A stretch of 64,000 nucleotides of DNA from Desulfosarcina widdelii. GTDB lineage: Bacteria; Desulfobacterota; Desulfobacteria; Desulfobacterales; Desulfosarcinaceae. Under the pieces are notes generated by a model. It searched no databases, was not told the origin of the DNA, and saw nothing but the letters and a program-made list of their open reading frames with translations. Shown here piece by piece: positions 9,335-45,034 of this stretch. The position numbers were made by a program, and so were the translations under genes. How positions within the stretch are numbered: the first letter of the stretch is position 1; every line of letters begins with the position of its first letter. Location: NCBI RefSeq assembly GCF_009688965.1, contig NZ_AP021875.1:1860001-1924000 (forward strand), read 5' to 3'.

Positions 9335-9571
9335 CTACATCCCGATCCACCTTCCAAGGTATCGCAATAGAGTATACGGCAATTCAAAAATCTGAACAAA
9401 AACGTTTTTAGGCCTGGGATTTACCTGTTTGCCAAGCTTGAAGTCAGGGCGAAACCGGGCTCCGCAATTCGGGCAGGCCATCAGGACCCCGCCTACGTCC
9501 TTGGGGAATCGCAATTGCTGGCCGCACTCGGGGCAGGTTCTGATTGTATTGTCTGTCATCTGTCGGTCCAT
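9335..9571 (-). CDS. Small zinc-ribbon protein
   Basis: The 78-residue protein has two CxxC pairs (C13/C16 in CPECGQQLRFP and C33/C36 in CPNCGARFRP), spaced like a zinc ribbon of the MJ0042 type. The C-terminal 25 residues are hydrophobic and aromatic (VFVQIFELPYTLLRYLGRWIG) and may form an amphipathic or membrane-associated helix. The function is unknown. An alternative start is the ATG four codons downstream. Confidence 0.65.
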   Translation of the reverse strand: MDRQMTDNTIRTCPECGQQLRFPKDVGGVLMACPNCGARFRPDFKLGKQVNPRPKNVFVQIFELPYTLLRYLGRWIGM

Positions 9572-9649
9572 TTCATAGCTGGTATCGCTGGTGGGGCGGT
9601 ATACTTTTTCAGGTATTTATCTACTGGTATTTGCCGGATCTTATTTTGT

Positions 9650-9798
9650 CTCACGCAAAGGCGCTAAGATTAAAAAAATGAACGCGTTCATTTTTTTATT
9701 TTTGAGAGCTTACTGTAAATGCCCTATGCTTTTTCCGACAGGCCGTCGGTATCCATTTTTCCTTCGCGTTCTTCGCGGCTTTTTTGCCTTTGCGTGAG
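9650..9798. repeat. Interspersed repeat, copy 4 (diverged interior)
   Basis: It begins CTCACGCAAAGGCGCTAAG and ends GCCTTTGCGTGAG, 149 bp long like copies 1 and 5, but the interior differs from the other copies. It may be a separate subfamily that shares only the ends. Confidence 0.6.
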
Positions 9799-9818: not shown

Positions 9819-10781
9819 CTATGCAAAGCATATTTTCCGGTGTCGCGAAAGATTTTCCTGATCCGGCCAGAAACGCTCGGCCTCCGGCTTGAAAATGGGT
9901 CGATCCTCAAGGGTAAAGATATGCCCCGGAATATTGCTGTCGATGCGCACCCGCTGGGAAACTAAAACTTCGTATTGTTTGCCGACGCTCATCAGCCCTT
10001 CGTCGAAAGACCAGTGGCACAGCCGGCACAGGCACAGCCCGTTGCTTGGCAAATCATCATGGCTTTCGCTCCAGGGTACGATGTGGGCGGCCTCCACCAC
10101 GGTATGACCTTCGGGTGTGCGCATACGGATTCCGCAAAATGCACAGCGATGGTCGTAGAGACTGACGATGGCCCGGCGGAACCCTTGGTCGCGAACCCGT
10201 TGGTTCTCCGGTGCTTCATCGGCAAAGCTCTCGGAAAGCTCTTTGATGCCGGCCACGACATCTTTGGCGTATGCGAATGCCGACAGGTTTACGAATGCCT
10301 GTTCGTGCAGCAGCGGCTGAATTTCTGGTGCGAAATAGGTTTGGATCAACACGGATCGCAGGATTTCCCTAGTCACCGGATCGACCAGAAATCCGAATAA
10401 CGCATCATCCATCCGCGCACCAGTGAAATTCTTTCGCAACCAAACCATCGACGGGGTACGGAACGGGTCCGGAATGTTCAAACTCGAATTGGGAATCAAA
10501 TGCCAAAAGCCGTCGCTCTTCATGAAAAAGTAGGGATAAGCCATGCTTGAACTTTTTCCGGGTGGCATAACCGCATTCCAATACCCGTTCCATGTATCGA
10601 CCAGTTCAAATGAAGGCTCGATGAAATTCTCTGTGATCTGCCCCTGAGCGATCAGATCCATGATCGAAAGCAGGAGAAAGGGCTTGTGGGGCGCACGATG
10701 GCAGGTGGCAGCCGACCATCGATGGCGGCTTTTATCGGTGTTGAGGCGGGAAAACTTATTCAGGTATTCATCTACTGACAT
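9819..10781 (-). CDS. HNH endonuclease with putative phosphorothioate-DNA (sulfur) binding domain
   Basis: The 320-residue protein has an N-terminal domain with RAPHKPFLLLSIMDLIAQG (residues 29-47), the hallmark I know from the sulfur-binding domain (SBD) of ScoMcrA-type enzymes, which recognise phosphorothioated DNA. The C-terminal HNH nuclease has C213/C216, H233 in VEAAHIVPWS, N247 and LCHWSFDEG with C255/H256. By family knowledge such enzymes are type IV restriction nucleases that cut sulfur-modified DNA. The start overlaps the end of the 98-residue gene by 10 bp, so translation is probably coupled. It is the last gene of a three-gene operon with the giant helicase. No dnd or ssp modification gene is present in the window, as expected for a modification-dependent enzyme. 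Confidence 0.8.
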   Translation of the reverse strand: MSVDEYLNKFSRLNTDKSRHRWSAATCHRAPHKPFLLLSIMDLIAQGQITENFIEPSFELVDTWNGYWNAVMPPGKSSSMAYPYFFMKSDGFWHLIPNSSLNIPDPFRTPSMVWLRKNFTGARMDDALFGFLVDPVTREILRSVLIQTYFAPEIQPLLHEQAFVNLSAFAYAKDVVAGIKELSESFADEAPENQRVRDQGFRRAIVSLYDHRCAFCGIRMRTPEGHTVVEAAHIVPWSESHDDLPSNGLCLCRLCHWSFDEGLMSVGKQYEVLVSQRVRIDSNIPGHIFTLEDRPIFKPEAERFWPDQENLSRHRKICFA

Positions 10782-11068
10782 CTGATTGCATCCACGCGCC
10801 GAGACAGTTTCTGGACGATCCTTTTCATCTGGCTTGCGTCAATCCCCTCTTCCTCCTCCAGGTTCCAGTATTCCACAAACTCATCCGGATCTTTGGCAAT
10901 CGCATTCAGACGGGTTTGCACCTTTTCGAGCCAGGCATCTTCATTCTCGCAGTCGTAGCTCAACACGCCGAGTTCGGTTTTCAGCGTATCGCACGCCTTC
11001 GCTGCATGAACGATAATGGCGTATGCTTCGTCCGACAGGTCATCGGTATCCATTTGCTCTGTCCCCAT
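10772..11068 (-). CDS. Small acidic protein of the RecQ-UvrD / HNH operon
   Basis: I do not recognise this 98-residue protein. It is acidic and helical, with an EEEEG cluster near residue 75 and conserved-looking segments DEAYAIIVHAAKACDTLKTELG and EDAWLEKVQTRL. There is no signal or membrane segment. It starts 51 bp after the giant helicase stop and overlaps the HNH endonuclease start, so it is the middle gene of the operon. ATG codon 6 (after GGGACAGAG) is an alternative start. It may be an adaptor or regulator between helicase and nuclease; that is inference from position only. Confidence 0.6.
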   Translation of the reverse strand: MGTEQMDTDDLSDEAYAIIVHAAKACDTLKTELGVLSYDCENEDAWLEKVQTRLNAIAKDPDEFVEYWNLEEEEGIDASQMKRIVQKLSRRVDAIRCQ

Positions 11069-11119
11069 ATGGCTGATTTTAGCTCGACTCCGAAAACATA
11101 AGAATACCCACCGCCTCGA

Positions 11120-14100
11120 TCAATTATTGATAGGCGTGTACACCGCCTCGAGGACGGGCAACTCCCACTGATCCACTCTGATTCTATCCTGAAAACCTTC
11201 TGCGGGATCATCACGCTCACGCTTTAACAGTGCGACGACTCTCAATTCACCGATTTGATCTGCACGCCGGGACCATTTATCGGTGCCTTCTTGCGAGAGC
11301 CTGCTAACGCAGCAGCCATCCGCATCGTGTATTTCAATCCCGGAATTATTCAGATGAAAAGCAACTTTTTTTCCGGCCTCCAGGCGGGCCAATTGTTTGT
11401 GGATACGGTGGCCCCTGTTAAAACAACCGGCAAAATCCATATAAATTTCGCTCAGGCCGATCAGCTCGTATCGTTTGTTTTTAAATCCATTGCCGATGGC
11501 AGCATCAGCGTAGGTTTTGGATAGGGTAAAAGAGCCTCTGATTTCTTTTAGGAACGGGTTGGGGCGGATAGGGATTTTCATGAGGTGCAACGTCTCCTCA
11601 GCACGTGTCATACCCACATACATGACGCGTCGCTCCTCTTCCCATTCAGCCCTGTTTCTCTGCCCTGCCCAGTCGCCGTCCAGAATAAACACATGCGGGA
11701 ACTCCATACCCTTGGACGAATGAATGGTGCTGAGAAATATTCCTTGTCCCAGAACCTTCTCCCGACGTTGTTCCGCCGTGAATTCATAGAATCGGTCGAT
11801 GGCCCGGCTGACCGGAAGGACGCTGTCCGAAGTTTCGTCACGATAGTTGTCGAAAAACAGGTCGACCAACTGCCACCAGATGTTATGGTTTCGATTGGAT
11901 TGGACACCATTGAGCATCTCTATCAATTCAGTGGCACGTAAGTTCATCTTCTCATTGGCGGTCAACAATTCCAGCACATGATGAACCTCTCTTACCCGGT
12001 GAAACGGCAACCCTTTTTCCAAGGTTGTCCGAATGGGATAACCGCTGTCTTCCAGAATCGATCGCACATTCGCCAAAGGCATTTTTGTCCGGCTGAGGAT
12101 GGCGAAGTCATGCCACGCCAGGCTGGGATCAATCGTCCGCATGCGATCGATTTCAGCTTTTATGTAAGCCGCTTGATCTTGAGGATGATTTACGGAAACG
12201 ATCTGCACAAGACCCTGTCCGACGGGGTCGATCAACGCCCACCGCCCCCCCGGCCGATTGGATTCTCGCCCGCCGTTGATGCGGATCGGGTGGTTGCCTT
12301 TCATACGGTCGTGGTTGACTCGGATCAGGGTATTCGCGGCCGAAATGATGTGCCTGCTGGAGCGGTAATTTTCAACGAGATACACCACGTCTTTGCTGTA
12401 GTCTTCCTGGAAGCGCCGAATAAAGCGGATGTTTGCGCCGCGGAACGTATAGATATTCTGATCGTCGTCGCCCACGGCCACTATGGCCAGCCGGCTGTCC
12501 TCCTCTGCAAGCGACCTGCCGGCAATGGCAGACACGAGGTCGTACTGATCCTCGTCGATGTCCTGATATTCGTCCACGAGGATGTGGCTGTATCCGGCCA
12601 GCAAACGATCCCGATGTTCATCGGCTTCTACGCCTGGAATATCCTTTTTCCCATTCAGCAATTTGACGGCATCCTTGATAATGCGGTCGAACTGGATGTT
12701 GTCCTGGCTGTATTCGGCAGCCATATCGCGAATGGAAATCCCGGCCAAGCGCATGGCAACGCCGTGATAGGTGGCGATGGTAACCGCATTGGCCACCTTC
12801 CCGACCAAGGCACGCAGTCGCTTTTTGAGCACCATGGCAGAGCTGTGGTTGAAACAGAGCACCAGAATCTGGCGCGCCGGTATTCGCTCCACCTCGAGTA
12901 AATAGGCACAGCGATGCACGATAACCATCGTCTTGCCTGATCCAGGGCCGGCCAAGATGAGCATACTGTCGTCCACAGGACGCCCCACAACCCCGATCTG
13001 AATCGGGTTGTGCAGGTTGTCGACGATCATACGGAAGGACTCGGCCGTCGTGGCCTTGTCCAGCAGTTCTTGGTCCCCTTCGAAATATTTATTGATGAAT
13101 TTCACACGGCCTAAAGTGAAATAATCCAGAACAAGCGTCAACGCAGGGGCAATTTTTTCAAGGGCCAGGGTCGCATAGCGCATCATCACGTGGACTTGAA
13201 GTCTCTTTTCCTGGTAATGTACGGCCAACGGCTTATAATCACCCTTGCTGTAGTAACGTCCTTTGGCCATCTCTGCCAATCGCAGCGTCATGGCCTGCCT
13301 GAGAACGGCCAATCCACCCTGCAGTTCGATAACGTGCTGTTCGTGCAGGAACATCAGTGCACGCTCCATGGCCGGCAACACTTTTTTGACTTCGGTGCTC
13401 AGTGCCAGATCCGACTTGATCGCAGCCGACAGGTCGTCGCTGGTGAAAGTGATTTGTACGTTTCCCGTAACCTTGGCGCCGGTTTCTGCAGCCTGCTTGT
13501 TAACCAGTTCGATCAGCTTTCGTAATATTGCGTTGGCGACATTTTGCCGTAGAAAAATCGTTTTGCGGATGTTATCCCAGCTGCGTCTTAGCCTGACCCG
13601 GTAGTGGTGCCGATCCACATGGCCGATTTCAAAGCTGCCAGTCGACGCGGCAAAGCCTTTGCCGTCATAAGATATGCCTTTGATCAGCAACCTCAAAACG
13701 TCCGGGCTGGTCGGGCATCCCTCGTTGGTTAGTTTCTGGTTCAAGCGGCGGATATCCAGCTCGACCCAGTCTCCATTTTCCGCGTCAGGATCCTCGAGCT
13801 GCAACAGGCGGATCAGCTTGTCTTCGATTTCGCAAACCGCCTGGTACGTTTTACGGGCGTTGTTCTTGCCTTTTGGACGAAAGGTTGCCGACAACATGAG
13901 CCCCTTGTCGATCAGCCTGGCATCCGACATATCATGCAAGGCCGAAATGACGATCTGGGCGGCGGTCTGCCCGGTTTGCCGTTCCATAGCCTGGAGCGTT
14001 TCTTTTTCGGTAAACAGCGCCTCTGCGAGTTCGTCAGCCCGGATACCGCGATCTTTCGGGCTGTTGATGATCTGCTGCAGGATGCCGAGCCAGAGGTGTC

Positions 14101-16348
14101 TGGTTTGAGGTGCGATGTTGAGCCGGTTCATGATTTCTGTGGCCGCTTCGAACGAATCGACCAAGGGCTTGCCCTGGAAAGCTTCCGTAAGGTTATGGTT
14201 GCGTTGCAAGAAACCCGCTCGCTCTAACCAGGCGATGGAGGCCCTGATTTTAGTGTCCCGAAACTCGGGTTTCAGTTCCTTTATGTCGGCCCAATCTTCA
14301 TCTCGGATGAGTTCGTCTGTGGTGACGATGATTTCGCCATTTTCGTTTCTTTTCTTGCGCCGTAAGGCCCGCAGTGTTCGAGCAATCTCCTTCCGCCTCA
14401 CTTCCGACAAAGATCCCATGCTAAACTGCAGCTTTGCATCCTCCTCGTCGTATAAGAGAATGCAGCGTGCCGGTTTCAGGTCCCGGCCGGCACGACCGGC
14501 TTCCTGGATGTAGTTTTCCAACGATCCGGGCATACTGTAATGGATCACTAAACGGATATTTTCTTTGTCGATACCCATACCGAATGCATTGGTGGCACAA
14601 ATGACGGGGGTATGCCCGGCGATAAAGGCGTCAATGATGCCGCGTTTCTCCTTTGAGTCGATCCCGGCGTGAAATGCCTCGGCTACCAATCCCTGATGGA
14701 GGAGGAATTCCCGGATTTCCTCCGTATCCTTGCGTGTGGAAGCATAGACGATGATGCCCCCCGGATCGTCGTTGGAATCCAGATGGTCCTGGATCATCTC
14801 GTGGGTTCGTTGCAATTTTTCCGCTTTTGAGAGGGGAACAACTTCAAAAGAAAGATTTTGCCGTTCGACACCGCCTTCGTAGAGCCGGAGGTCCTGGCCG
14901 AGTTCCTCACGAAAGTGGTTCCCGATCTCTTCGGCAACGCTTTTTTTTGCGGTGGCCGTAAAGCAGCCGACCGGCGGCACCGGCTGATTCTGCTCCCTGG
15001 CGAATTCCCGGATGAAGCGCGCTGCGTAGAGGTAGTCGGGCCTGAAGTCGTGCCCCCATTTGGAAAGACAATGCGCCTCGTCGAACACCCAACTGCCGAT
15101 TTCGCGCTGTTTGAGAACATTGCGGACGCTGACGCTGCGCAGCTGTTCCGGCGAGATGTACAGAATGGCGGTATCCCCCAAACGGATTCTTTCGAAGATC
15201 TCTCCCCGTTCCGGTAGCGTCTGCAACCCGGAAACCGATTCGGCAAATAGCGTTCCCGTCTTTTTAATAAGGTTGTCTACCTGATCCTTCATCAATGCCT
15301 GCAGCGGAGATATAACGATGGTCAAGGTTCCACGGCGCCAGTAGCGCACCAACGCGGGCAATTGGTAGCAAAGTGACTTTCCGCCGCCGGTTGGGAGAAT
15401 CCCCATGGTGGGCCGGTCTCCCATGCAGCCGCACACGATTGCCCGCTGTAGGCTCTCGCCTTTTTCCGTTTGTGGCGCTTCTCGGAACGAAGGGTAACCG
15501 AAAAATCGGGTAAGCTGACGTTCGGGATCATGGTTTTCCACACAAAATTTGCAGTCGTTTTCGCCGCAGGGAATTTCTCTCAACGCCTTAATGATGGCAG
15601 GGATTTCAGGAAACCGGTATCGGACCCAAGGGGGGAGCACTGAATTACCGCCGGCGACCTGTAACCAGGCCAGGCAGAACGCGACTGCCGGCCGTTTTGT
15701 GTCGTCTGCCAACAGGGATGGAATCGTTTGCTTAGCGGTATGGGTGCATACTTTTCCGGATGTCTGTCTGAAGAAAGTATTCAGGGCTGATTCCGGATCT
15801 TGAACGGAGTTTGCGGCGGACAGCAACGCAAAAACCGTGGATAGTCCTTTGCCCGAAAAGCCATTGAACGTACTATCCTGAAAGCAGTACCGGTATAAAT
15901 CGATTAGTTCCGGGTTTTCCTTGGCCAGGCTTTGAAAACTTTTCCACTGGTCTTCAAAAACGGAAGCTGCAAGTCTGGCGTCTTCAACGGGATTGTTTAT
16001 GGTTGCCCGAACCAGTTTATAATCCTTTACCAGGCGATGATAAGGGTTTTCGGGAAAGGCGATGGGAGACAGATAAAGGGTGTCGATCACCGGTTTTTCA
16101 AGAAAAGCGAGCCACGGAAAAGAGGCCTTCAGGACGGGAAAATCGTGCCCGAGCAGATTGTGACCCAAAATGAAATCCGCATCCTGGGCGATTTCTGCGA
16201 GCTGCTTTAATGTGTCCCGCGAGCCGGCGTTCTTCTTTTTTTCGAAAACGCGACCGTCGAGGATGGCACCAATGTGCCGAATCCTGCCCGATCGCGTCGT
16301 TTCCAGATCGAGCAACAATGTCTTGGATAGCAATTCAGAAAAGTCCAT
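11120..16348 (-). CDS. Giant DnaQ-like exonuclease / RecQ helicase / UvrD helicase fusion
   Basis: The 1742-residue protein has at least three enzymatic modules. Residues 1-140 form a DEDD exonuclease fold: D14/E16 in LLLDLETT, D69 in GHNLLGHDFPVL, D123 in NNPVEDA; the usual catalytic His position (118) is Asn. C261, C266 and C269 may bind zinc. The RecQ-type SF2 helicase has Walker A LPTGGGKSLCYQ (K324), DEAHCLSKWGHDFRPDY (423-439), GMGIDKENIRLVIHY and QEAGRAGRD. A linker of about 400 residues follows. The C-terminal UvrD/Rep SF1 helicase has AGPGSGKT (K1139), ILVDEYQDID, GDDDQNIYTFRGA, TIHSSKGMEFPHVF and YVGMTRAEETLHL. The protein could unwind and degrade DNA as one machine. It heads an operon with the small protein and the SBD-HNH nuclease, which suggests anti-phage or plasmid defence. 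Confidence 0.9.
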   Translation of the reverse strand: MDFSELLSKTLLLDLETTRSGRIRHIGAILDGRVFEKKKNAGSRDTLKQLAEIAQDADFILGHNLLGHDFPVLKASFPWLAFLEKPVIDTLYLSPIAFPENPYHRLVKDYKLVRATINNPVEDARLAASVFEDQWKSFQSLAKENPELIDLYRYCFQDSTFNGFSGKGLSTVFALLSAANSVQDPESALNTFFRQTSGKVCTHTAKQTIPSLLADDTKRPAVAFCLAWLQVAGGNSVLPPWVRYRFPEIPAIIKALREIPCGENDCKFCVENHDPERQLTRFFGYPSFREAPQTEKGESLQRAIVCGCMGDRPTMGILPTGGGKSLCYQLPALVRYWRRGTLTIVISPLQALMKDQVDNLIKKTGTLFAESVSGLQTLPERGEIFERIRLGDTAILYISPEQLRSVSVRNVLKQREIGSWVFDEAHCLSKWGHDFRPDYLYAARFIREFAREQNQPVPPVGCFTATAKKSVAEEIGNHFREELGQDLRLYEGGVERQNLSFEVVPLSKAEKLQRTHEMIQDHLDSNDDPGGIIVYASTRKDTEEIREFLLHQGLVAEAFHAGIDSKEKRGIIDAFIAGHTPVICATNAFGMGIDKENIRLVIHYSMPGSLENYIQEAGRAGRDLKPARCILLYDEEDAKLQFSMGSLSEVRRKEIARTLRALRRKKRNENGEIIVTTDELIRDEDWADIKELKPEFRDTKIRASIAWLERAGFLQRNHNLTEAFQGKPLVDSFEAATEIMNRLNIAPQTRHLWLGILQQIINSPKDRGIRADELAEALFTEKETLQAMERQTGQTAAQIVISALHDMSDARLIDKGLMLSATFRPKGKNNARKTYQAVCEIEDKLIRLLQLEDPDAENGDWVELDIRRLNQKLTNEGCPTSPDVLRLLIKGISYDGKGFAASTGSFEIGHVDRHHYRVRLRRSWDNIRKTIFLRQNVANAILRKLIELVNKQAAETGAKVTGNVQITFTSDDLSAAIKSDLALSTEVKKVLPAMERALMFLHEQHVIELQGGLAVLRQAMTLRLAEMAKGRYYSKGDYKPLAVHYQEKRLQVHVMMRYATLALEKIAPALTLVLDYFTLGRVKFINKYFEGDQELLDKATTAESFRMIVDNLHNPIQIGVVGRPVDDSMLILAGPGSGKTMVIVHRCAYLLEVERIPARQILVLCFNHSSAMVLKKRLRALVGKVANAVTIATYHGVAMRLAGISIRDMAAEYSQDNIQFDRIIKDAVKLLNGKKDIPGVEADEHRDRLLAGYSHILVDEYQDIDEDQYDLVSAIAGRSLAEEDSRLAIVAVGDDDQNIYTFRGANIRFIRRFQEDYSKDVVYLVENYRSSRHIISAANTLIRVNHDRMKGNHPIRINGGRESNRPGGRWALIDPVGQGLVQIVSVNHPQDQAAYIKAEIDRMRTIDPSLAWHDFAILSRTKMPLANVRSILEDSGYPIRTTLEKGLPFHRVREVHHVLELLTANEKMNLRATELIEMLNGVQSNRNHNIWWQLVDLFFDNYRDETSDSVLPVSRAIDRFYEFTAEQRREKVLGQGIFLSTIHSSKGMEFPHVFILDGDWAGQRNRAEWEEERRVMYVGMTRAEETLHLMKIPIRPNPFLKEIRGSFTLSKTYADAAIGNGFKNKRYELIGLSEIYMDFAGCFNRGHRIHKQLARLEAGKKVAFHLNNSGIEIHDADGCCVSRLSQEGTDKWSRRADQIGELRVVALLKRERDDPAEGFQDRIRVDQWELPVLEAVYTPINN

Positions 16349-16559: not shown

Positions 16560-17537
16560 TCATTGGGCATTCACTCCATCCAGAAAGTAAGCGCCAGATA
16601 TAGTTGCTTGCCTTGAAAACTTCTCCCATCGCTGGATCAGGTGTGCTGGTTTGGGCCTTAGATCAGCTCTTCGCGGGATCAATATTTTTGTATGGTGCAG
16701 GCCTTTTAAACCGTGTTGAAGCATTGGGCCATCAATTTCGTTTAGCAGGTCCTCTCGAATGACAATTCTGTAATCGGGACGGATACCAATAAACATGTTG
16801 TCGAAAGCGGCGTGGTGAAGCTTGCAAAGTGCGATGCCGTTGTTGACGACGGGATCACCACCCGGCTCATTATCAGGTATAATATGGGCAGCATCCAACA
16901 ACTCCCTGTGCCTAAGCCGGCAAAAGGCACACTGGTCTTTGTAAGCAGCCAGGACTCGCTCTCTGAAACCCCTTTGATGAAGACGATGCTTCACGCCATA
17001 GGTGATATATGAGCGGCGAGCTTCATCATCAGAGTCGGCAATATAGGCTGCCGTGCCTAAATGTGGCTTCTGTCGCCGCAAGTAGGTCATGTCATCTACG
17101 GCGACCGTGAAAGTCAAATCACTTGGATTGTCTCCAACGATAAATACAGGCCAAACGGCGAGATATTTTCCGGGGATTATACCGTGAAAATAAACAAGCG
17201 GAACGTTATGCAATAGAGCGTTTCTTAAGCCGACATTTTCGTGGTGATCAGGATCTTGTCCTCGATAACGGTAAAGTAGAAATCCATCAGGATTGAAACT
17301 ATCACTGTAAGGGCTTTTTGGAGATGTCGTAATGCTCAGCGGGATCTTCGGTAGGACTCTGGGCTTGAATATTCCTTGGGGGCCGACCAAAGGAACGCGC
17401 TGACCGTGATATACGAACCCTTCGGATAGCAGAGTGCGGGGCAGCACATCACCGTACTCGGTTTCGCGAGCTTTCAGCCAATCGAAAGCCGCCATTCTTA
17501 CCTCGTTATCAATACCAATTGTCGGGTTATTCGACAC
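16560..17537 (-). CDS. HNH endonuclease, probable modification-dependent restriction enzyme
   Basis: The 325 residues fit a family I know as putative HNH restriction endonucleases: an N-terminal region with VLPRTLLSEGFVYHGQRVPL and VGPQGIFKPR, a middle region with YRYRGQDPDHHENVGLR and PLVYFHGIIPGKYLAVWPVF, and a C-terminal HNH nuclease with C203/C206 (CAFC), H218 in DAAHIIPD, N233 and ALCKLHHAAFD. The N-terminal part probably folds as an SRA/PUA-like modified-base reader; this is inferred from the family, not proven. It lies 211 bp upstream of the giant helicase on the same strand, so it may be an independent member of the same defence island. Confidence 0.8.
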   Translation of the reverse strand: MSNNPTIGIDNEVRMAAFDWLKARETEYGDVLPRTLLSEGFVYHGQRVPLVGPQGIFKPRVLPKIPLSITTSPKSPYSDSFNPDGFLLYRYRGQDPDHHENVGLRNALLHNVPLVYFHGIIPGKYLAVWPVFIVGDNPSDLTFTVAVDDMTYLRRQKPHLGTAAYIADSDDEARRSYITYGVKHRLHQRGFRERVLAAYKDQCAFCRLRHRELLDAAHIIPDNEPGGDPVVNNGIALCKLHHAAFDNMFIGIRPDYRIVIREDLLNEIDGPMLQHGLKGLHHTKILIPRRADLRPKPAHLIQRWEKFSRQATISGAYFLDGVNAQ

Positions 17538-19153: not shown

Positions 19154-19447
19154 ATGATAATTCGCTTCAAAAACAAAGCTACTGAAGATATTTTTAACGG
19201 CAGGGCCTCGAAGTCTGCAATGAAGGCCTGTCCAAAAACGTTGTGGGAAATTGCATGCAGAAAGCTCGATCAATTGGATTCCGTGGTGAATTTTGACGAC
19301 CTTCGCGTCCCACCGGGCAACAGATTGGAAGCGCTTTCAGGAAACAGAAAAGGTCAATGTAGTTTTCGTATCAATAGCCAATACCGCATCTGTTTCATCT
19401 GGACCGAGAATGGTCCGACAGATGTCGAGATCACGGACTACCTCTAA
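19154..19447 (+). CDS. higB: HigB-type mRNA interferase toxin
   Basis: The 97 residues match the HigB/RelE toxin family in length and pattern: a start MIIRFKNKATEDIF, a central LDQLDSVVNFDDLRVPPGNRLEAL, and a C-terminal GQCSFRINSQYRICFIW with the basic and aromatic residues used for ribosome-dependent mRNA cleavage. The toxin gene precedes the antitoxin gene by 20 bp, which is the usual HigBA order. It should be cytosolic and neutralised by the next protein. Confidence 0.92.
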   Translation: MIIRFKNKATEDIFNGRASKSAMKACPKTLWEIACRKLDQLDSVVNFDDLRVPPGNRLEALSGNRKGQCSFRINSQYRICFIWTENGPTDVEITDYL

Positions 19448-19467
19448 CGCATCATCGAGGACTAATA

Positions 19468-19806
19468 ATGATTAGAATACCGACCCATCGCACACCGACC
19501 CACCCCGGAGAGATGCTGCTGGAAGAGTTTCTGAAGCCGATGGGCATCTCTCAGCGGGAACTGGCCAACGCGATAAAGGTTCCCTATCAGCGGATCAATG
19601 AAATCATCAATGGCAAGCGCGGCATCACCCCCAGCACGGCCCTGAGACTCGCCAAAGCGTTCGGGGTTTCATCGGATTTCTGGATGAACGTCCAGTTGCG
19701 CTGGGATCTCTATTTTGCCAAAAAGGCCGAGACTGCAGCCCTGGATGCCATCCAGCCGCTACCCCAGGCCCATATGGCAACAAATCCCATGGAGGCACAG
19801 CACTGA
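19468..19806 (+). CDS. higA: HigA antitoxin, XRE-family DNA-binding protein
   Basis: The 112 residues show the HigA signature: HPGEMLLEEFLKPMGISQRELA, a helix-turn-helix at about 28-55 (VPYQRINEIINGKRGI) and TALRLAKAFGVSSDFWMNVQ. It should bind HigB and autorepress the operon. The last about 25 residues are less conserved. The stop at 19806 is followed by two half copies of the interspersed repeat at 19896-19914 and 19935-19964. Confidence 0.93.
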   Translation: MIRIPTHRTPTHPGEMLLEEFLKPMGISQRELANAIKVPYQRINEIINGKRGITPSTALRLAKAFGVSSDFWMNVQLRWDLYFAKKAETAALDAIQPLPQAHMATNPMEAQH

Positions 19807-19964
19807 TCCGGGTTGTATCGATTTCTATCTTTCGCGGCCATGGACCGCCCATAGAAGGTCCCGTAGTATTGTTATTTCGCTGCTTAAATGCCCTTGCTCG
19901 CGCCTTCGCGTGAGCCTATCCTTTCAAATGCCCTTCTTTGCCTCTTTGCGCCTTCGCGTGAGCC

Positions 19965-21218
19965 TTACATCAGGTGGTTAACAAAGGCTTCTTCCAGGAA
20001 AGGGAAGTCTTTTTTGGATACCCCAAAGCGGGCATAGACCGATGGCCATTCGGATAAAAACGTCTGCTTGAGGCGGTCGATGATCTGCCGGCCGTCTTCC
20101 GGGGGCAGGCCGAAGACCGGGCAAACGGAAAGTGCATTTTCCAGGGTCGCCCGGCGGCTGCCGTCCATGCCGACGCCCAGGGTAAGGTTGCGGGGCACAC
20201 CCGGCCCCATATCCGGTTGAGGAACGACGTCGTATGCCGGTGAAAGCCGCCAGCCGTGACCGGGCTGGTGAATGAATCCGTGGTTGCGCAGATGATCGTC
20301 GGCATTGTTGCACAGGATATTGAAAACCATCCGCATGAAAAGCTGTTTCAGGTCTTCCGCCACATTCGGTGCCGCCACATACTTTCGCATCTGAACGGCG
20401 ATCTCCTGGTAGCTACCGGTGTCGATCCGGTCGGTGGCCAGCAGGGTGGCGGCCGAGATAAACGGGATCGGGTCGCCCGAAGCGTCGCGGTCGAAGCGCT
20501 CGATCAAAAATACGTCCCGGTCGCCCACCGTCAGAACTTTCGAATCCGGCACATCAATTCGGCAGCGGGCGGCCAGGCGAAGGTTGGCGTGCTCGATCCG
20601 GCAGGTGTTCCACGCTTCACGCTCCCGGCCGAACTTGGCGATCCATTGGCGGCCGCCGTGCAGCGTGGGCGCCTTGGGTTGCGCACCACCCAGCGAGCTG
20701 CCGCGCAGGAGAAACCGGCGATGCCGGGGCGACAGGGCTTCCCCCTGATCGATCCGGTCCGCCGCCGCAATCATGTCCGCCAGGTCAAGGGTTGCGCCAC
20801 GGGGCGGATAGTTTTCCCAACCGGGATCGATGGGAGCCGGTCCTTCTTCCAGGGAACGTCCGAACCCGAGGGCACCGGTTCGATTTTCCACCGGCAGAGC
20901 GGTGAGATATTCGAACTCTCCCGGAGAGCGGGGCTCGGCCGCCCGGTCCAACAGATGTCTCCCCCAGCCGTCCGGCGCCGCGTCCCGGATACCGCCGAAC
21001 AGCGGGCAGGCAGGCGTGGAACGAAACAGGGTTTCTCCTAAAGGAAGCTGCACCGGGTCGATGGCCATGGCGTCCGGACGCTGAAGGTACTTGCGACCGT
21101 ACTGGAACGTGGAAACGATCTGACGGCCGTCTTCGAAAATTGTCAGATAACCGCACGGCAACCACGTACCGCCCAGATGGATGAATACATAAGCACTGTT
21201 TTCTCTGGCCATGTTCAC
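19965..21218 (-). CDS. hipA: HipA-family serine/threonine kinase toxin
   Basis: The 417-residue protein has the HipA layout: an N-terminal couple_hipA-like domain (about 5-125) and a kinase domain with the P-loop-like GSSLGGAQPKA (173-183), catalytic NADDHLRNHGF (305-315; Asp307 or Asp308 as base) and SPAYD (326-330) for metal binding. HipA kinases phosphorylate glutamyl-tRNA synthetase or related targets and cause growth arrest. All key motifs look intact. The start lies 16 bp after the stop of the helix-turn-helix gene, so the two form a toxin-antitoxin operon. The stop codon abuts a half copy of the interspersed repeat. Confidence 0.92.
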   Translation of the reverse strand: MNMARENSAYVFIHLGGTWLPCGYLTIFEDGRQIVSTFQYGRKYLQRPDAMAIDPVQLPLGETLFRSTPACPLFGGIRDAAPDGWGRHLLDRAAEPRSPGEFEYLTALPVENRTGALGFGRSLEEGPAPIDPGWENYPPRGATLDLADMIAAADRIDQGEALSPRHRRFLLRGSSLGGAQPKAPTLHGGRQWIAKFGREREAWNTCRIEHANLRLAARCRIDVPDSKVLTVGDRDVFLIERFDRDASGDPIPFISAATLLATDRIDTGSYQEIAVQMRKYVAAPNVAEDLKQLFMRMVFNILCNNADDHLRNHGFIHQPGHGWRLSPAYDVVPQPDMGPGVPRNLTLGVGMDGSRRATLENALSVCPVFGLPPEDGRQIIDRLKQTFLSEWPSVYARFGVSKKDFPFLEEAFVNHLM

Positions 21219-28334: not shown

Positions 28335-29177
28335 TCAGTTAAGCATATCGAACCAATTTTTAATTGTAGAGGAAAGAGTGCCAATTGTTGAAGCATTTCT
28401 ATTTACCCAGCAAAAACCTCTTTGGATTAGGCTTTTACGCTGAGAAGGATCTGCCTTTTTAAGCTCATCCAAAAGATTTTCCAGTTCATTTCTTTCTTTT
28501 TGAGTAACTCCTTTTTCTTTGAGGGAATCATGTATACTTGAATAATCCCCCACTTGAACATTTGAGGATGTTACATCACCCAAAATTCCTTTGAAAGATT
28601 TGATATTATAAGTTACTGACCCAGCTTTATTAATTTCTTCAATAGAAAAGGACATTCCGTCACCTAAAATGCCTTGATTTTCAAGTTCTAAGCTCCAGTT
28701 TAATATTTCATTTCTGACTGAATCTAGTATTCTAAATATTTGAGACCGGTCAACGAGTAAAGTTGGTACCATCCCCAACCGGAATTGTTCGCTGTGTGAA
28801 AATAATTTCATGATCCAATCATGAGGGAGAGGAACTTGTAAAACTCCACCTTTTTCTTTTTCATGGATCAAAGACTCAAGCTCAGAAATAGGCTGTCCAA
28901 TATCCCTTTTTGAGATTGCCTCCATGGCCTCCGAATTTTCCATAACTACTGGTATCCAGCCATTGTATGGATTCCATGCTTTCAATGAACCCTTTACATT
29001 GCGGTATGAAGGAATAATGGCTTCCTTTTGATAGCCTTTCATCTCAGAATCAATCCAACTTTTGAAATCATTGATTTTCAGTTTTTTCGCAACAACCAAA
29101 GCCTTTCTTAAAATATCTGAGAGGCGACTATTAGGGTTCATTGCTTCACTTTGGAGTTCAAGAACAAGTGATTTCAT
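28335..29177 (-). CDS. AbiTii-domain abortive-infection protein
   Basis: The 280 residues begin with the AbiTii domain pattern: LQSEAMNPNSRLSDILRKALVVAKKL, DFKSWIDSEMKGY, PSYRNVKGSLKAWNPYNGWIPV. By family knowledge AbiTii (first seen in lactococcal AbiT systems) is linked to abortive infection, with an unknown biochemical role. The middle contains VPLPHDWIMKLF; the C-terminal region is helical and polar, with ERNELENLLDELKK. There is no membrane segment. It lies 70 bp downstream of the disrupted Mrr-like gene on the same strand, inside the low-GC cargo of prophage A. Confidence 0.8.
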   Translation of the reverse strand: MKSLVLELQSEAMNPNSRLSDILRKALVVAKKLKINDFKSWIDSEMKGYQKEAIIPSYRNVKGSLKAWNPYNGWIPVVMENSEAMEAISKRDIGQPISELESLIHEKEKGGVLQVPLPHDWIMKLFSHSEQFRLGMVPTLLVDRSQIFRILDSVRNEILNWSLELENQGILGDGMSFSIEEINKAGSVTYNIKSFKGILGDVTSSNVQVGDYSSIHDSLKEKGVTQKERNELENLLDELKKADPSQRKSLIQRGFCWVNRNASTIGTLSSTIKNWFDMLN

Positions 29178-34603: not shown

Positions 34604-36490
34604 TTATTCAGGCCGTTTATAAATTTTTGCGCCCAGATTTTGCGTCCATCCAATCTCTTCGGAATACTGGGCGTACATGCTTTTGATGGCGGCCTCCAGG
34701 GCGCTCGAACGGCTCAGATTTGTCGGATTGACCCCATCCGTGCCATCGTCGAACCAATCCGCCTGGGCCATGATGTGGATCTCGTAGCTTTCCTCGTGAT
34801 CGACGTCGCCCGTGTAACTTCCATCGACCCAAATATCTCCGCCGCTCGCGGACTGGGTTGCCTTTTGGATCAGGATTCCGAAAATCTGAGTGATTATTGA
34901 TTCGTTGAATCGGGTCGCCTGGATGTAGGTCCCGTCAAGGACGAACGTTTGATTGACCGCATCCCAATGGTAGTCGGTCTTTTTTTCCTGATAGCAATAG
35001 GCATCGAATTCTCCCAAATTGATCGGCTCCGTCATGCCTAACGGGGTGTGTATCCGTAACTTCGATTGGCCCGTCCGCCATCGTTCCGCGTCGCACTCGA
35101 CGTCCGGTATCGAACCGGGATGAACCGTTGACGATTGTTGATAATAGACCCAATGCTCCAGCCGCATGATTCCGTAATGCTCCTGGTTGATCCGATCCCG
35201 GAGTCGCCGCGTGTAAAAGAAAAAATTGGAGTCGGAGAGCGCCGGCGCATTCGCGCCCAAATCCACGTTAATCGAATAAAAAAGCGACCGCGTGTCGTTA
35301 TAATCGGACGAGTTAAACGTCGGATTATACCAGACCCCTGACACATGGCTAGAGGCTCCCGCGCCCTCCATATATTCCGTGCAATAGGTTTCCGGCCATT
35401 CTCCGGATTGGGAAAGGGATTCATATTGCGTCATCTTGTATTCCCCGTCGTAATCGAACTCGGACGGGTATTCTCTCATCAAAAAATTAGAGTAGTTTAA
35501 CAGATCGTCAGGCCAATAAACTGTCCCAGGCTGGCCGCCCCAAGAACCTGTCTGAAGCCCATCGGTATCCACCGTCTGGTAGACCTGCTGAGAATCCGGC
35601 CAGTCCTCTTCGAACCGCTCGAAAAAAAGTTCCAGATCGTCCGAAGAGGCCGGCCATGTGACCCCTTCCAGCGTCGCATCATGGGCATAGTCGTCGGTTC
35701 TCGGGTCCCAGACGATATAGGCCCCATCCTGGCCGTCAGCCGCGACAACGATCACAACGAACTGATCGCCGCATGCCCTCGGCTCTTGCTTAAAACCGAT
35801 AACGGTCGCCTGGGCATCGGTACGATAGGGCTCCCATTTGACGATCACCGTGTCGCCATCCTCGAAGGCCGCAGCGTTGCAGGACATGTATTCAATGGGC
35901 ACGTCATCCAGGGCGTTGACCGCGTTGATGTCCAGATCCTGGATGCTGCTGAACAGCGGATCGAAAACCACCCGGCAGGTATTTTGGATCTCGTCGATAT
36001 TGTGGATCGTCGCGTATCGATAGGTCGGGCGCCATTTCTGGATGGCGGGCATGATGGCAAAATTCAGCATGGCGTCGGCCACCGGCAAGGTAAGGAAGGG
36101 AACGGCCTGCCCGTCCAGGGATTGTACCCAGACAGCGCCGTCATCGTAGCCCGGCCGGATGTTGATCCCGTTTTTCGCCTCGGCGCCGGGCTCGATGGTG
36201 CCGACCTCCCCGGTTAAGCCCTCGGTGAAATCCGCGCACCAGGCCGTGGTCCGATAGTCCATGTCTTCGATGATCGCATCCAGTTCGGCGATCCTTTTTT
36301 GAAGGGAGGATTTTCTCAATTGAAGTGCGGCCAGAATATTCGGATCGCTTTCTTCAGCGATTCGGGCATCTACGTTGGCCAGGGCCGCTGCGAGATGGCT
36401 GTGTTTTAATGCAGCCGCTGCGGTGTCATGCTTAACCTCGATGGTGTATTGCCCATCCCCGATCTCGTTTATGATCTCAGCTTTGCCCAT
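34604..36490 (-). CDS. Large phage virion protein, probably tail tip or fibre
   Basis: From the ATG that overlaps the preceding stop (TGATG) the protein has 628 residues. The N-terminus is beta-rich (GDGQYTIEVKHD), then a helical hairpin (about 30-75), then long beta-rich segments with many aromatic and acidic residues. There is no signal peptide. I do not recognise a named family. Its place behind the tape measure and three coupled genes suggests a tail-tip or receptor-binding component of the siphovirus-like tail. Confidence 0.65.
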   Translation of the reverse strand: MGKAEIINEIGDGQYTIEVKHDTAAAALKHSHLAAALANVDARIAEESDPNILAALQLRKSSLQKRIAELDAIIEDMDYRTTAWCADFTEGLTGEVGTIEPGAEAKNGINIRPGYDDGAVWVQSLDGQAVPFLTLPVADAMLNFAIMPAIQKWRPTYRYATIHNIDEIQNTCRVVFDPLFSSIQDLDINAVNALDDVPIEYMSCNAAAFEDGDTVIVKWEPYRTDAQATVIGFKQEPRACGDQFVVIVVAADGQDGAYIVWDPRTDDYAHDATLEGVTWPASSDDLELFFERFEEDWPDSQQVYQTVDTDGLQTGSWGGQPGTVYWPDDLLNYSNFLMREYPSEFDYDGEYKMTQYESLSQSGEWPETYCTEYMEGAGASSHVSGVWYNPTFNSSDYNDTRSLFYSINVDLGANAPALSDSNFFFYTRRLRDRINQEHYGIMRLEHWVYYQQSSTVHPGSIPDVECDAERWRTGQSKLRIHTPLGMTEPINLGEFDAYCYQEKKTDYHWDAVNQTFVLDGTYIQATRFNESIITQIFGILIQKATQSASGGDIWVDGSYTGDVDHEESYEIHIMAQADWFDDGTDGVNPTNLSRSSALEAAIKSMYAQYSEEIGWTQNLGAKIYKRPE

Positions 36491-37881
36491 CACCCGGCCT
36501 CGACCACATCGACGTATTGCCGCGTCGGTGACAGCAGGCAAACGATGCTGCCCACTGTCATCTCGTCAGACCCATAAACCGCAGTGTCTCCGGGCCGCAG
36601 ATAGAAATCGGGCTTGGCGCATCGGTACTGCCGACGGCCGTCGGCCATGACGGTTTCGGTTTTGACGCCTTTCAGGGCGACTACGCTCGGTGAGAGATAG
36701 GTCCGGGTCCGGTAGCCCACCAGCGTCATGCTTTGGCTGTTCCCGCCGCGATCTGTCCGGTCGCTGTAATAATCGACCCGGATCAGCTCTTCCCGCAAAA
36801 CCTCTTCGCCCTCGTCGACGGCCGCCATGTCGACCACGATCTCACCGTTCGGCCTGGCCGCGATTGCCGCAGCCGCCGCAGCCGTGTACACGATGGACAA
36901 TGCAAGATAGGATGGCTCTCCCGTTCGCATCCGCAGCTGGAGCGATTTCAAACCAGATAAATCGTAGTCCTCCAGCCCGTCCGCCGCTCCGGTCATGCGC
37001 GCATGATATCGGTAGATCAGCAGCAGGTCGCCGTATTGGGCCATCCATTTCGTCAAATTCAGCGCCCCGGCGGTCGCTCCGAACAAAATTCCTGCCTGGC
37101 CGTTGGCGTTGCGAACCAGACCGCCGCCGGCAACGGCGGAAAGAACGAAGCCGGCACTTCCACCGACCTGCTTTTCGAAATTAACGCCGGCAGTCGCCCC
37201 GAAAACCATCCCGGATGGGGCACTCTGGAAAGACGAAACTGTTTCGACTCCGGGCGCGTCGTTCAATGTGAACCCGGCCGTTCCCCCGACGCCATCAAAA
37301 CCGTCGGCGTAGACCACCGTGAAATTATCCCAGAGGCAATAGGTGTCAGTATAAGTGATGTCGCGGAACGTGAGATAAATCCAGATGTCATCGGTCGAGA
37401 CCGTGCGGGTCCACATGGTTTGCCAGAAATAGCCGTTATCGTACTTTTCCAGCTTTAAACTGCTTCCCGTCCGCGTCACACGCAGGGTTGCAACGGTATC
37501 GTTGTTTGACATGATTCCGGTAGTTCCCGGCGACCCGGAAACCCAAAAGTTGGCCGCATAATCATCGCCATAGGCCCCGAAAAAACCATAGTTGTTCGAG
37601 TCCATATAAAGATAAATAAACGACCGCTGCGCCGTGGAAGAATGTTGGGAGAAGTCCAAATCAACGGTGAACTGGAAGTTGCCGATGAGTTTGTAGTTGG
37701 TCCGGACGTTGGCATGCCGCCCGGAGGTCGAACTGGCGAACTGCTTGAGCTGGTTGCCGGAGATCTCGGAAACGCCGTCGGCAAGGGACAGCACGGAGAG
37801 CGCGGCATTTTCATCCCAGAACGCCGCGTTGGGGGCGTCGCCGTCCACACCGCTGAAATCATCGTTGCCGTAAACTGCCAT
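36490..37881 (-). CDS. Phage tail-tip protein with concanavalin-like N-terminal region
   Basis: The 463 residues begin with a beta-sandwich-like region (about 1-190; WDENAALSVLSLADG, FTVDLDFSQHSS, SFIYLYMDSNNYGFF) of lectin/LamG appearance. Gly/Ala-rich repeats around 200-280 (GGTAGFTLNDAPGV, GGSAGFVLSAVAGG, GQAGILFGATAGA) follow, then a C-terminal domain with ELIRVDYYSDRTDRGG. It is coupled at both ends to its neighbours (ATG overlaps). It probably forms part of the tail tip; binding to cell-surface glycans is only an inference from the fold impression. Confidence 0.6.
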   Translation of the reverse strand: MAVYGNDDFSGVDGDAPNAAFWDENAALSVLSLADGVSEISGNQLKQFASSTSGRHANVRTNYKLIGNFQFTVDLDFSQHSSTAQRSFIYLYMDSNNYGFFGAYGDDYAANFWVSGSPGTTGIMSNNDTVATLRVTRTGSSLKLEKYDNGYFWQTMWTRTVSTDDIWIYLTFRDITYTDTYCLWDNFTVVYADGFDGVGGTAGFTLNDAPGVETVSSFQSAPSGMVFGATAGVNFEKQVGGSAGFVLSAVAGGGLVRNANGQAGILFGATAGALNLTKWMAQYGDLLLIYRYHARMTGAADGLEDYDLSGLKSLQLRMRTGEPSYLALSIVYTAAAAAAIAARPNGEIVVDMAAVDEGEEVLREELIRVDYYSDRTDRGGNSQSMTLVGYRTRTYLSPSVVALKGVKTETVMADGRRQYRCAKPDFYLRPGDTAVYGSDEMTVGSIVCLLSPTRQYVDVVEAG

Positions 37882-38402
37882 TATGCGTCATCAGCTCCGG
37901 TGACCGTGACAAACACCTTGATGACATCGTCATCAGAAATTCCGGTGACCGCCCCGCCGGTAAACTGCACCACCGGACCAAGGATGGCGCCGGAAGCGGC
38001 CTGATCGCCCTTGGTATCGTCGGATACCAGGGCCGCGCCGTAAATGGTCGCATCGGTGCCGTCCATCGTGAACTCGGCCTTGGAGGAAGTGTTGCTGATG
38101 GACTTGCCCGATACGCCATCCTCCGACCAGGCCGGCCGGGTGCTTTCGTCGTATCCGTCGGACTCGGTAAATCCGGGCGATGCATAGGTATCGGTTGCCA
38201 CCGGTGTGTGATCGTCAGAAAACAGGAGGACATACCAGGCGGTTATCGGGGTGCCGCCCGACAATGACGCGTCAAGAACGTGGTTGATGAACTCGTCGGG
38301 GCAAAGGTTTTCTTCGATCCGCTCGGCCAGCATCTTGTCACCACGCCAATGCTGAACCACCCAACGGCTGCCGATGACAATTTTTTGATGAGAATTTTTC
38401 AT
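37881..38402 (-). CDS. Phage tail protein, 173 residues
   Basis: The ATG at 38402 overlaps the stop of the preceding gene (ATGA), which I prefer to the longer open frame. The sequence has a start KNSHQKIVIGSRWVVQHWRG and a beta-rich end, VIKVFVTVTGADDA, with FTMDGTDATIYGAALV. This pattern occurs in small tail proteins of transposable siphophages, but I cannot name a family. It is coupled to its downstream gene by a shared base at 37881. Confidence 0.6.
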   Translation of the reverse strand: MKNSHQKIVIGSRWVVQHWRGDKMLAERIEENLCPDEFINHVLDASLSGGTPITAWYVLLFSDDHTPVATDTYASPGFTESDGYDESTRPAWSEDGVSGKSISNTSSKAEFTMDGTDATIYGAALVSDDTKGDQAASGAILGPVVQFTGGAVTGISDDDVIKVFVTVTGADDA

Positions 38403-38749
38403 TGGATAAATTTCTCCGAAAAATAGATGGTGATCCTGGAAACGCCGTCGCGGGCGGCTTTCAAGCCATAGATGTAGCCGATATAAACACCGTCCCAGTA
38501 GGAGACCCGGATCTGGCTGGCGTTTTCGAACAACGACCGGATAACGGCGATATCGGTATCGGACAGCCGGCATTCGGCAACCAGGGTGCGGTCGATCTCG
38601 CTGACGCCGTAGTGAGAAAGTACGCCGCCGCCGTCCAGGGTCTTGTCCCGGCTGATTCGGGCAGTGTTTTCATAGGTCGCGGTGAGCTGATAGTTGCGGA
38701 TGCGCAGATGGCCGGCACTGTCGGCAGTGGTCTTGCTGACAAAAATCAT
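38399..38749 (-). CDS. Phage tail protein, 116 residues
   Basis: The ATG at 38749 overlaps the tape-measure stop (ATGA), giving 116 residues; the frame is open further upstream but inside the tape-measure gene. Segments include YGVSEIDRTLVAECRLSDTD and IRVSYWDGVYIGYIYGLKA. Order (directly after the tape measure) fits a distal-tail or tail-completion protein. No named family is recognised. Confidence 0.65.
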   Translation of the reverse strand: MIFVSKTTADSAGHLRIRNYQLTATYENTARISRDKTLDGGGVLSHYGVSEIDRTLVAECRLSDTDIAVIRSLFENASQIRVSYWDGVYIGYIYGLKAARDGVSRITIYFSEKFIQ

Positions 38750-41424: not shown

Positions 41425-41427
41425 GGT

Positions 41428-41634
41428 TCAAGTCTTCAATTCTACCGCGCCATTTTTTTCCGGAACCGATGCCACAACATCCGCTCCGTCTCCGTCAGAT
41501 ACCCGTGAGGAAAAATATCGGGTATCACTTCGAAGAGAAATCGGTGCCCTCCGAATCCGCCTCCGGAGCACATGGTGAGGGCGTCCTGCACCCGAGGGGT
41601 GGCCCAGAGGCGTTCGATTCCCCCAGCGGCACAT
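41428..41634 (-). CDS. Tail assembly chaperone frameshift extension (probable)
   Basis: This frame overlaps the end of the preceding gene and runs to just before the tape measure. It lies +1 (equivalently -2) relative to the upstream gene. A GGGGG run on the minus strand (41624-41620) within the overlap is a suitable slip site. Most tailed phages, Mu included, make a chaperone and a frameshifted longer form from such a pair (established knowledge). The fused product would have about 208 residues. Confidence 0.55.
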   Translation of the reverse strand: MCRWGNRTPLGHPSGAGRPHHVLRRRIRRAPISLRSDTRYFSSRVSDGDGADVVASVPEKNGAVELKT

Positions 41635-42055
41635 GCCCCAGGGAAGTCAGCCGATTGATGGCGTTGAACAATTTAAGAAAAGAATCGATGTGAAATTCAG
41701 CCAGTCGCACCGCATCGCTCTGCTCCAGCTTTACCGATGCGCACCCGAACTGCACATAGGCGATGGCCTTGGCAAGTGCGTCCGGAACGCTGGACCCGCC
41801 AAGACCCAAAGCCTCGAGCGCCGCCTCAATGGCCTCGGCGCCCTTGCCGTCGGCCAGCTTTTTGACCAGCCCTTCGAGATTCTTGTTGACGGCCACGCGC
41901 TGCTCGGCCCGATAAACTTCCGGGCCGGTCAGGTTCTGGACGACGATTACCGGCTTTTCGTCATCGTCGAAAAAGGCGGCCAGGGCCGGAACCGGCACCG
42001 GTTCTGTACGCCGCTCGTATTCCGTCGTTCGGTATTTTTCGATATTAAACGGCAT
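41525..42055 (-). CDS. Tail assembly chaperone
   Basis: The 176 residues have the size, position (between tube and tape measure) and composition of a tail assembly chaperone: a start PFNIEKYRTTEYERRTEPVPV, then a helical body ending in SFLKLFNAINRLTSLG. A CGGAGGAGA ribosome site precedes the ATG. The last about 30 codons overlap the frame at 41428-41634, in which the frameshift extension is probably encoded. Confidence 0.7.
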   Translation of the reverse strand: MPFNIEKYRTTEYERRTEPVPVPALAAFFDDDEKPVIVVQNLTGPEVYRAEQRVAVNKNLEGLVKKLADGKGAEAIEAALEALGLGGSSVPDALAKAIAYVQFGCASVKLEQSDAVRLAEFHIDSFLKLFNAINRLTSLGHVPLGESNASGPPLGCRTPSPCAPEADSEGTDFSSK

Positions 42056-42076
42056 GTCTCCTCCGGAACATTCTCT

Positions 42077-43102
42077 CTACGATGAGAACTCCACCGACGG
42101 TTTTTCGCAGTAAATGGTGCAGCTGATCTTGTTGGGATTGCCCGAAGGAAACTCCCGGTCGAACGCCAGCAGCCCCTGGGTCAGCATGTAGGGCAGCTTG
42201 TTGGCGTCCGGCCACCATTTGACGGTCACCGTCTGGTTTTTCTCCCGCACGATGCCATCGGTGATGCCGTCTTTCACGTACAGGGTAAAAGAGGCGTCGC
42301 CGACCGAGTCGGCCTTCATCGATCCGATGGCGCCGGAAACGCCCGATCCCTCGTAGACGGCGGTGCTGGATTTGGTGACGCCCATCTCGGCCGGTTTGAA
42401 ATCGGCCACGTTCTGCTGAACCGTCAGGCTGGGTGTATAGAATTTGATGTACACCCGCTTGGCCGCAGGGCCGGTATGGATCGCCGGCAAGGGCGTATTG
42501 AATTTTATGTGGGCGTTTTTCTCAGCAGCCACTTCGGCGTAGCTGCCCTTGCCCACGTTGTGCTCCTCGAAGCCGGGAATGTCCGCATATTCGGCGTGAT
42601 CATTGGGCGCCTGGTAGATCTCGGACTCGGCAATGACGGCGCTGGACTGGCTGTTCATGCGAACCTGTCCCAGTTCGACGGCATCCTCCGGGATCAGCGG
42701 CGGGCCGCCGGCGGCGCCACGGGTTTCTGAAAACTCGGTACCCTCGGTGCCCTCGACTTCGTCCAGGCCGCCAACGTCGGTCATGATGATTGACGAAATC
42801 TTGAAATTTTCGGTGGACGGCCGGGTCACCGCCTGGCTGCCGGCCGCAACAGAGTGCTCGACGCCCTTGGAATAGGCCGTAAATGCGGCCACGGTCACCG
42901 TGTCGTTGGCTGCGTTGGGAGAAAGCACCCGCTGCCCGGTCACGATCCCGTTGGGCCGCACGTCGGGCTCGTATCCCGAGCGCCCGCTCCACAGGGCGCC
43001 AAGGTTGAAACGCTGGTGGTCGCCCGAGTCGGCCATAACCGAGAAGTCGGTCAGGGTGCGACTCAACTCGACCGCTACCTTTCCTCGTTGAGATGATGAC
43101 AT
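42077..43102 (-). CDS. Putative major tail (tube) protein
   Basis: The ATG at 43102 follows AAAGGAGATCGAA, so I take it over the frame's upstream ATG at 43123; the protein then has 341 residues. Text features: YEPDVRPNGIVTGQRVLSP, then VTVKWWPDANKLPYMLTQG and GNPNKISCTIYCEKPSVEFSS at the end. Its place before the chaperone and tape measure fits a tail tube protein. No tail-sheath gene lies next to it, which argues for a non-contractile tail. I cannot name the family. Confidence 0.6.
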   Translation of the reverse strand: MSSSQRGKVAVELSRTLTDFSVMADSGDHQRFNLGALWSGRSGYEPDVRPNGIVTGQRVLSPNAANDTVTVAAFTAYSKGVEHSVAAGSQAVTRPSTENFKISSIIMTDVGGLDEVEGTEGTEFSETRGAAGGPPLIPEDAVELGQVRMNSQSSAVIAESEIYQAPNDHAEYADIPGFEEHNVGKGSYAEVAAEKNAHIKFNTPLPAIHTGPAAKRVYIKFYTPSLTVQQNVADFKPAEMGVTKSSTAVYEGSGVSGAIGSMKADSVGDASFTLYVKDGITDGIVREKNQTVTVKWWPDANKLPYMLTQGLLAFDREFPSGNPNKISCTIYCEKPSVEFSS

Positions 43103-43160
43103 TTCGATCTCCTTTGGTTCCACAAGGGATGCCGTCCGGCGGCCCTTGCGAGGTTATTTG

Positions 43161-45032: not shown

Positions 45033-45034
45033 GA

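Follow-up and report, generated by a model that had tools for sequence, protein, structure and literature searches.

A RecQ–UvrD helicase fusion beside a predicted phosphorothioate-dependent nuclease in Desulfosarcina: probably two independent modules

Introduction

Do three tightly packed genes on a Desulfosarcina chromosome form one dedicated defence system, or are they independent modules that came to lie side by side? The question is raised by a 64-kb stretch of DNA, here called the window, from a host chromosome that is a single contig of 7.3 Mb. In it, the gene for a very large protein (the giant), which joins a DEDD-type exonuclease fold to a RecQ-type and a UvrD-type helicase motor, is followed by genes for a small protein and for an HNH endonuclease with a predicted sulfur-binding domain (SBD). 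The initial annotation took the three to be a coupled system. We find that the locus is best explained, with a probability of roughly two in three, as a chance-assembled pair of independent modules against foreign DNA in a defence-rich stretch, and not as a dedicated three-gene system.

Results

The three genes lie as follows:
11120–16348, minus strand: the giant, 1742 amino acids, with a DEDD/DnaQ-fold domain, a Cys/His knuckle, a RecQ core, a middle region and a UvrD core (open reading frame, profiles, predicted structure and motifs)
10772–11068, minus strand: small all-helical protein, 98 amino acids, of the MDTDDL family but without its C-terminal TPxxKRG tail (alignment, predicted structure)
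9819–10781, minus strand: predicted SBD-HNH endonuclease, 320 amino acids (profiles, PDB sequence match, conservation)

All three open reading frames are present at these coordinates and lengths, as first annotated. The order on the minus strand is a 325-residue HNH protein (16560–17537), the giant, the 98-residue protein and the 320-residue HNH protein. The spacing is operon-like, with a gap of 51 bp between the giant and the small gene and an overlap of 10 bp between the small and HNH genes. Because the ratio of non-synonymous to synonymous substitution rates (dN/dS) is 0.135 for the giant (compared with genome G004) and 0.127 for the HNH gene (compared with D. alkanivorans), we judge both genes to be under purifying selection and their coding not to be due to chance. 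Scans for promoters and terminators around the locus gave chance-level signals, and a search for RNA families found none.

If these genes formed one system, they should be found together elsewhere. The SBD-HNH gene is present in 0 of the 37 other giant loci, and the small gene leaves a trace in one of them, a 26-codon remnant in G004, where the DNA shared with the window (90.8%) begins 7 bp before the start of the giant and ends 26 codons into the small gene. Giants on plasmids and mobile elements have no SBD-HNH or small-gene partner. The reverse search gives the same picture: the giant is in none of the loci of about 36 SBD-HNH relatives, whose varied neighbours include a DUF3427 helicase, a Schlafen-type helicase, NERD, Mrr, NUDIX, an integrase and a methylase. 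With no conserved neighbourhood on either side, the coupled three-gene system proposed earlier is not supported, and we rejected it for this lack of conservation. A further arrangement was considered in D. alkanivorans (G008, PL12, NZ_AP021874.1; loci L049 and L079), in which genes for an NYN protein, RecQ, DprA and UvrD precede an SBD-HNH gene. This UvrD has 830 amino acids with S24 peptidase and HSDR_N domains, unlike that of the giant, and RecQ-DprA-UvrD was rejected as a conserved set, its UvrD being absent from 96 relatives.

The giant itself resolves into four recognizable parts:
15809–16348, minus strand: DEDD/DnaQ-fold domain, residues 1 to about 180, with D14, E16, D69 and D123 (alignments, AlphaFold2, VIA-align)
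15530–15568, minus strand: putative zinc knuckle C261/C266/C269/H273 between the exonuclease fold and RecQ (invariant in alignment A4)
14369–15529, minus strand: RecQ helicase core, residues 274–660, with GGGKS at 321, DEAH at 423 and GMGID at 590 (profiles and motifs)
11534–12991, minus strand: UvrD-type helicase core, residues 1120–1605, with GPGSGKT at 1134, DEYQD at 1259 and GDDDQNIYTFRGA at 1293 (profiles and motifs)

No Pfam model matches the N-terminus, and the exonuclease fold proposed for it in the initial annotation is borne out by structure prediction. The AlphaFold2 model of this domain, built on an alignment of genome-derived rows only, is confident (predicted local distance difference test, pLDDT, 90.6), and VIA-align places it closest to Staphylococcus aureus DinG (9ii8, Z 14.1, 236 residues, root-mean-square deviation 4.8), followed by DnaQ (8h2f, Z 12.7), oligoribonuclease, Pol II and TREX1, every match listed being an exonuclease or proofreading domain of DEDD type. 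The four metal-ligand acids D14, E16, D69 and D123 are invariant across 19 sequences. What had been overlooked is that the position of the DEDDh histidine or DEDDy tyrosine is occupied by N118/N119 in the window giant. In all giant relatives aligned, the catalytic His or Tyr before the last Asp is absent, and it is because Asn, Ser or Asp stands there throughout that nuclease activity of this domain is uncertain. A near-invariant H104 and an invariant K108 fall in a low-confidence loop of the model. Compared with G004, the stretch 15563–16348, which holds the exonuclease-domain codons, has a synonymous divergence (dS) of about 1.3, against about 0.2 for the remainder of the giant; going by this contrast, the N-terminal part was probably swapped by recombination. 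Ahead of RecQ lies a putative zinc knuckle (C261, C266, C269, H273), whose residues are lost in the cyanobacterial giant.

Both helicase motors claimed for the single 1742-residue chain are there. The RecQ core scores 266.8 bits with TIGR00614, above the cut-off of 219.8, and the UvrD core matches PF00580 at 4.5e-38 and carries all of motifs I–VI of the UvrD/Rep/PcrA group of superfamily 1A (GPGSGKT, DEYQD, GDDDQNIYTFRGA, NYRSS, HSSKGMEF and EEERRVMYVGMTRA), so that by profile and motif the two are full, motif-intact helicases. Sequence profiles gave no Pfam match to RQC or HRDC up to E 0.1; the middle region spans residues 660–1090.

The giant is patchily distributed, with a substantial match in 12 of 60 relatives and in 7 of 345 genomes of a phylum sample. 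Family members share 28–92% identity and come from Desulfobacterota, Pseudomonadota, Cyanobacteriota, Bacteroidota and Campylobacterota; in the latter four phyla there are plasmid-borne giants, and giants also lie on five IMG/VR contigs. Restriction systems of type I (L021), type II (L135) and type III (L136) stand beside some of them, and Cas6 in L020. Literature searches for a RecQ-UvrD fusion returned nothing relevant. As far as the literature searched shows, this exonuclease-RecQ-UvrD family is undescribed, its members being annotated merely as RecQ-family helicases; the novelty rests with the giant family rather than with the combination of three genes. A single chain that unites an exonuclease fold with two complete and different helicase motors is unusual, and it is conserved.

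The 320-residue protein has two domains:
10332–10781, minus strand: sulfur-binding domain, residues 1–150, with H32, K33, Y82 and P83 (PDB 8h0l, E 6e-11; kept in relatives)
9825–10205, minus strand: HNH nuclease domain, with H233, N247, H256 and Cys pairs 213/216 and 252/255 (PF13391, 3.4e-13)

The N-terminal 150 residues are matched by SBDHga (8h0l), a sulfur-binding domain of solved structure, and hold the PHKP motif at residues 31–34, so that an HNH nuclease with a phosphorothioate-binding domain, as initially described, is well founded. In ScoMcrA the sulfur is contacted by H116, R117 (or Lys), Y164 and P165 (PMC6224610). The counterparts here are H32, K33, Y82 and P83, of which H32-K33 and P83 align with 8h0l; all are conserved in relatives. 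The catalytic HNH residues are intact (EAAHIV at 230, SNGLCLCRLCHWSFD at 246; PF13391 49.7 bits). The phosphorothioate restriction model NF045808 matches over the full length (E 4e-37) at 127.9 bits, under its cut-off of 180; on this score the protein is a homologue of the family that falls short of the curated threshold for membership. Neither DndC nor another writer of the phosphoadenosine phosphosulfate (PAPS) reductase type was found in the host genome, whose sole PAPS_reduct match is a GMP synthase, and a linkage to dnd was rejected on this ground. Enzymes of the SBD-HNH kind are known to cut phosphorothioate DNA and are usually solitary, fewer than 3.6% lying near dnd genes (PMC7461809). 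Because of the SBD, the intact HNH domain, this solitary habit and the lack of DndC in the host, the 320-residue protein is, from its sequence, most likely an ordinary type IV restriction enzyme that depends on phosphorothioate, belonging like EcoWI to an established kind. A search of viral contigs with the HNH alignment gave no match. Elsewhere, at L078 (9222–16740, G117), an SBD with 47% identity to that of the window is fused C-terminally to a 1904-residue HerA/FtsK-type ATPase beside a MAD7-like gene (NF047733), and is possibly a sulfur reader in a MADS-like system.

A coupling role for the small protein is not supported either. Its family (MDTDDL...TPxxKRG, about 100 residues) is predicted to be a helical bundle (pLDDT 92.5) and adjoins unrelated genes in other genomes, and the window copy ends without TPxxKRG, precisely at the start of the HNH gene. 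Roles as antitoxin or adaptor were rejected, Pfam, PADLOC and NCBIfam giving chance-level matches only and the PDB no sequence match; Foldseek returned nothing under E 3, and the best VIA-align match (Z 5.8) is in the noise range for helical bundles. Past the HNH gene lies a feature overlooked earlier:
9583–9758, minus strand: remnants of a second small-gene start (9758–9718) and then of a second HNH start (9626–9583), with 85% identity over 41 nt and 82% over 45 nt

Because of these remnants, we read the small/HNH cassette as duplicated and eroded. Tail loss and remnants together fit a secondary joining of the genes. Next to them, at 9335–9571 on the minus strand, a 78-residue zinc-ribbon open reading frame lies in a repeated element with more copies in G004 (L030, L065) and D. 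alkanivorans (L049).

One further gene upstream of the giant had been overlooked:
16560–17537, minus strand: second predicted HNH endonuclease, 325 amino acids (PF13391, 1.5e-10)

In L085 a split relative of it (65%) adjoins an SBD-HNH gene, so co-occurrence of the two HNH types is not confined to this window. Further on, the window holds toxin-antitoxin genes of HigBA type and HipA (19154–21218), the abortive-infection gene AbiTii near a transposase (28335–29177, minus strand) and phage tail genes for a minor tail protein and a tail terminator, a probable prophage (34604–45038). In G417 (L123), a near-identical HigA start is found some 6 kb away from the giant.

Discussion

The DNA-processing and defence flavour first seen in this locus is supported, and we explain it by two modules whose mechanisms are drawn from what is known of their families. 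The first would be the stand-alone exonuclease-fold/RecQ/UvrD fusion, comparable, as a single chain, to helicase-nucleases of the RecBCD or WRN type. Most likely its two 3'-5' motors would unwind foreign DNA that is branched or replicating, with the DEDD domain trimming or holding the 3' strand. The second would be a type IV restriction enzyme, whose SBD would dock on phosphorothioate-marked incoming DNA and whose HNH domain would cut near the docking point; the host should be safe from it, because a DndC-type writer is absent. The 98-residue protein may be a mobile passenger, its family having varied neighbours.

Several observations weigh against this separation. The tight spacing suggests co-transcription of the giant, small and HNH genes. 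About five giant loci end at a contig edge within or just downstream of the giant, and the 26 small-gene codons retained in G004 make possible an older giant-small-HNH unit from which G004 lost the HNH gene. As to the defence role, several giants are placed among ordinary genes, and that giants are enriched in defence islands is no more than an impression. Finally, the closest SBD-HNH relative (77%), that of D. alkanivorans, stands behind separate RecQ, DprA and UvrD genes, like the same parts unfused. Were the three genes a dedicated system, the SBD-HNH enzyme would nick marked DNA, the small protein would couple, and the giant would unwind and degrade from the break; beyond the operon-like spacing and the D. 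alkanivorans operon, it speaks for this that several further SBD-HNH genes come after helicase genes. However, the combination recurs in none of the 37 other giant loci and about 36 SBD-HNH loci, the D. alkanivorans UvrD is not that of the giant and has no counterpart in 96 relatives, and the tail of the small protein is missing where the HNH gene starts, which together make such a system improbable. Dropping it saves work on a false system. The downstream remnants, a vestigial HNH start in D. alkanivorans (L049, 12082–12188), the loss of the SBD in L051 and the retention of the start only in L053 could also mean that the SBD-HNH gene is decaying in a locus under erosion. Given that its window copy is complete, keeps every catalytic and sulfur-binding residue and has a dN/dS of 0.127, we hold this to be very improbable.

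For the giant alone, a role outside defence has to be weighed. It might be an accessory repair or recombination helicase on plasmids and chromosomes, processing stalled forks or recombination intermediates with a WRN-like exonuclease and RecQ and a UvrD motor. The WRN-like arrangement, the many giants among ordinary genes and a plasmid copy adjoining parA/parB are in keeping with this, whereas the patchy occurrence, the frequent carriage on plasmids and mobile elements, the restriction-modification, Cas6 and toxin-antitoxin neighbours at some loci, and the UvrD-like helicases that the host genome already carries make it unlikely, if a serious contender. Tentatively, and at somewhat less than even odds, we put forward another reading: the fusion may be a defence system made of one protein, as yet undescribed and carried in several phyla on plasmids and mobile elements, whose two motors in a single chain unwind and degrade invading DNA as it replicates. 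If the giant does act on foreign DNA, it would be a simple one-gene defence candidate.

Comparison with known systems

Within the two-module reading, the 320-residue protein resembles EcoWI and Ksp11411I in its N-terminal SBD with an H-K and Y-P pocket, its C-terminal HNH domain, its stand-alone gene and the lack of a DndC-type writer in the host, and it has the SBD in common with ScoMcrA and SprMcrA. It differs from EcoWI/Ksp11411I-type enzymes in its sub-cut-off NF045808 score and its place behind a giant helicase, and its activity is a prediction. The motors of the giant match Gabija GajB (2e-48), Dpd DpdF (9e-101) and PsyrT (3e-81) in PADLOC, but the similarity is limited to the motor domains. 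The scanned window genes adjoining the giant include no GajA partner (OLD-type ATPase-TOPRIM), and its neighbours, to which the search for them was confined, no Dpd partners or PsyrA. S. aureus DinG, an exonuclease joined to a superfamily 2 helicase, is the top fold match of the N-terminal domain, and a measured exonuclease activity is reported for it (PMC12345164); DinG, however, is an XPD-like 5'-3' helicase without a UvrD motor. Like WRN of the RecQ family, the giant has a DEDD-type exonuclease fold ahead of a RecQ motor, but it adds a complete UvrD motor, RQC and HRDC were not detected by sequence profiles, and the DEDD His/Tyr is missing. With RecBCD and AddAB it shares the concept of a two-motor helicase-nuclease, while its motors are both of 3'-5' families and sit in a single chain, and its nuclease fold is DEDD, not PD-(D/E)XK.

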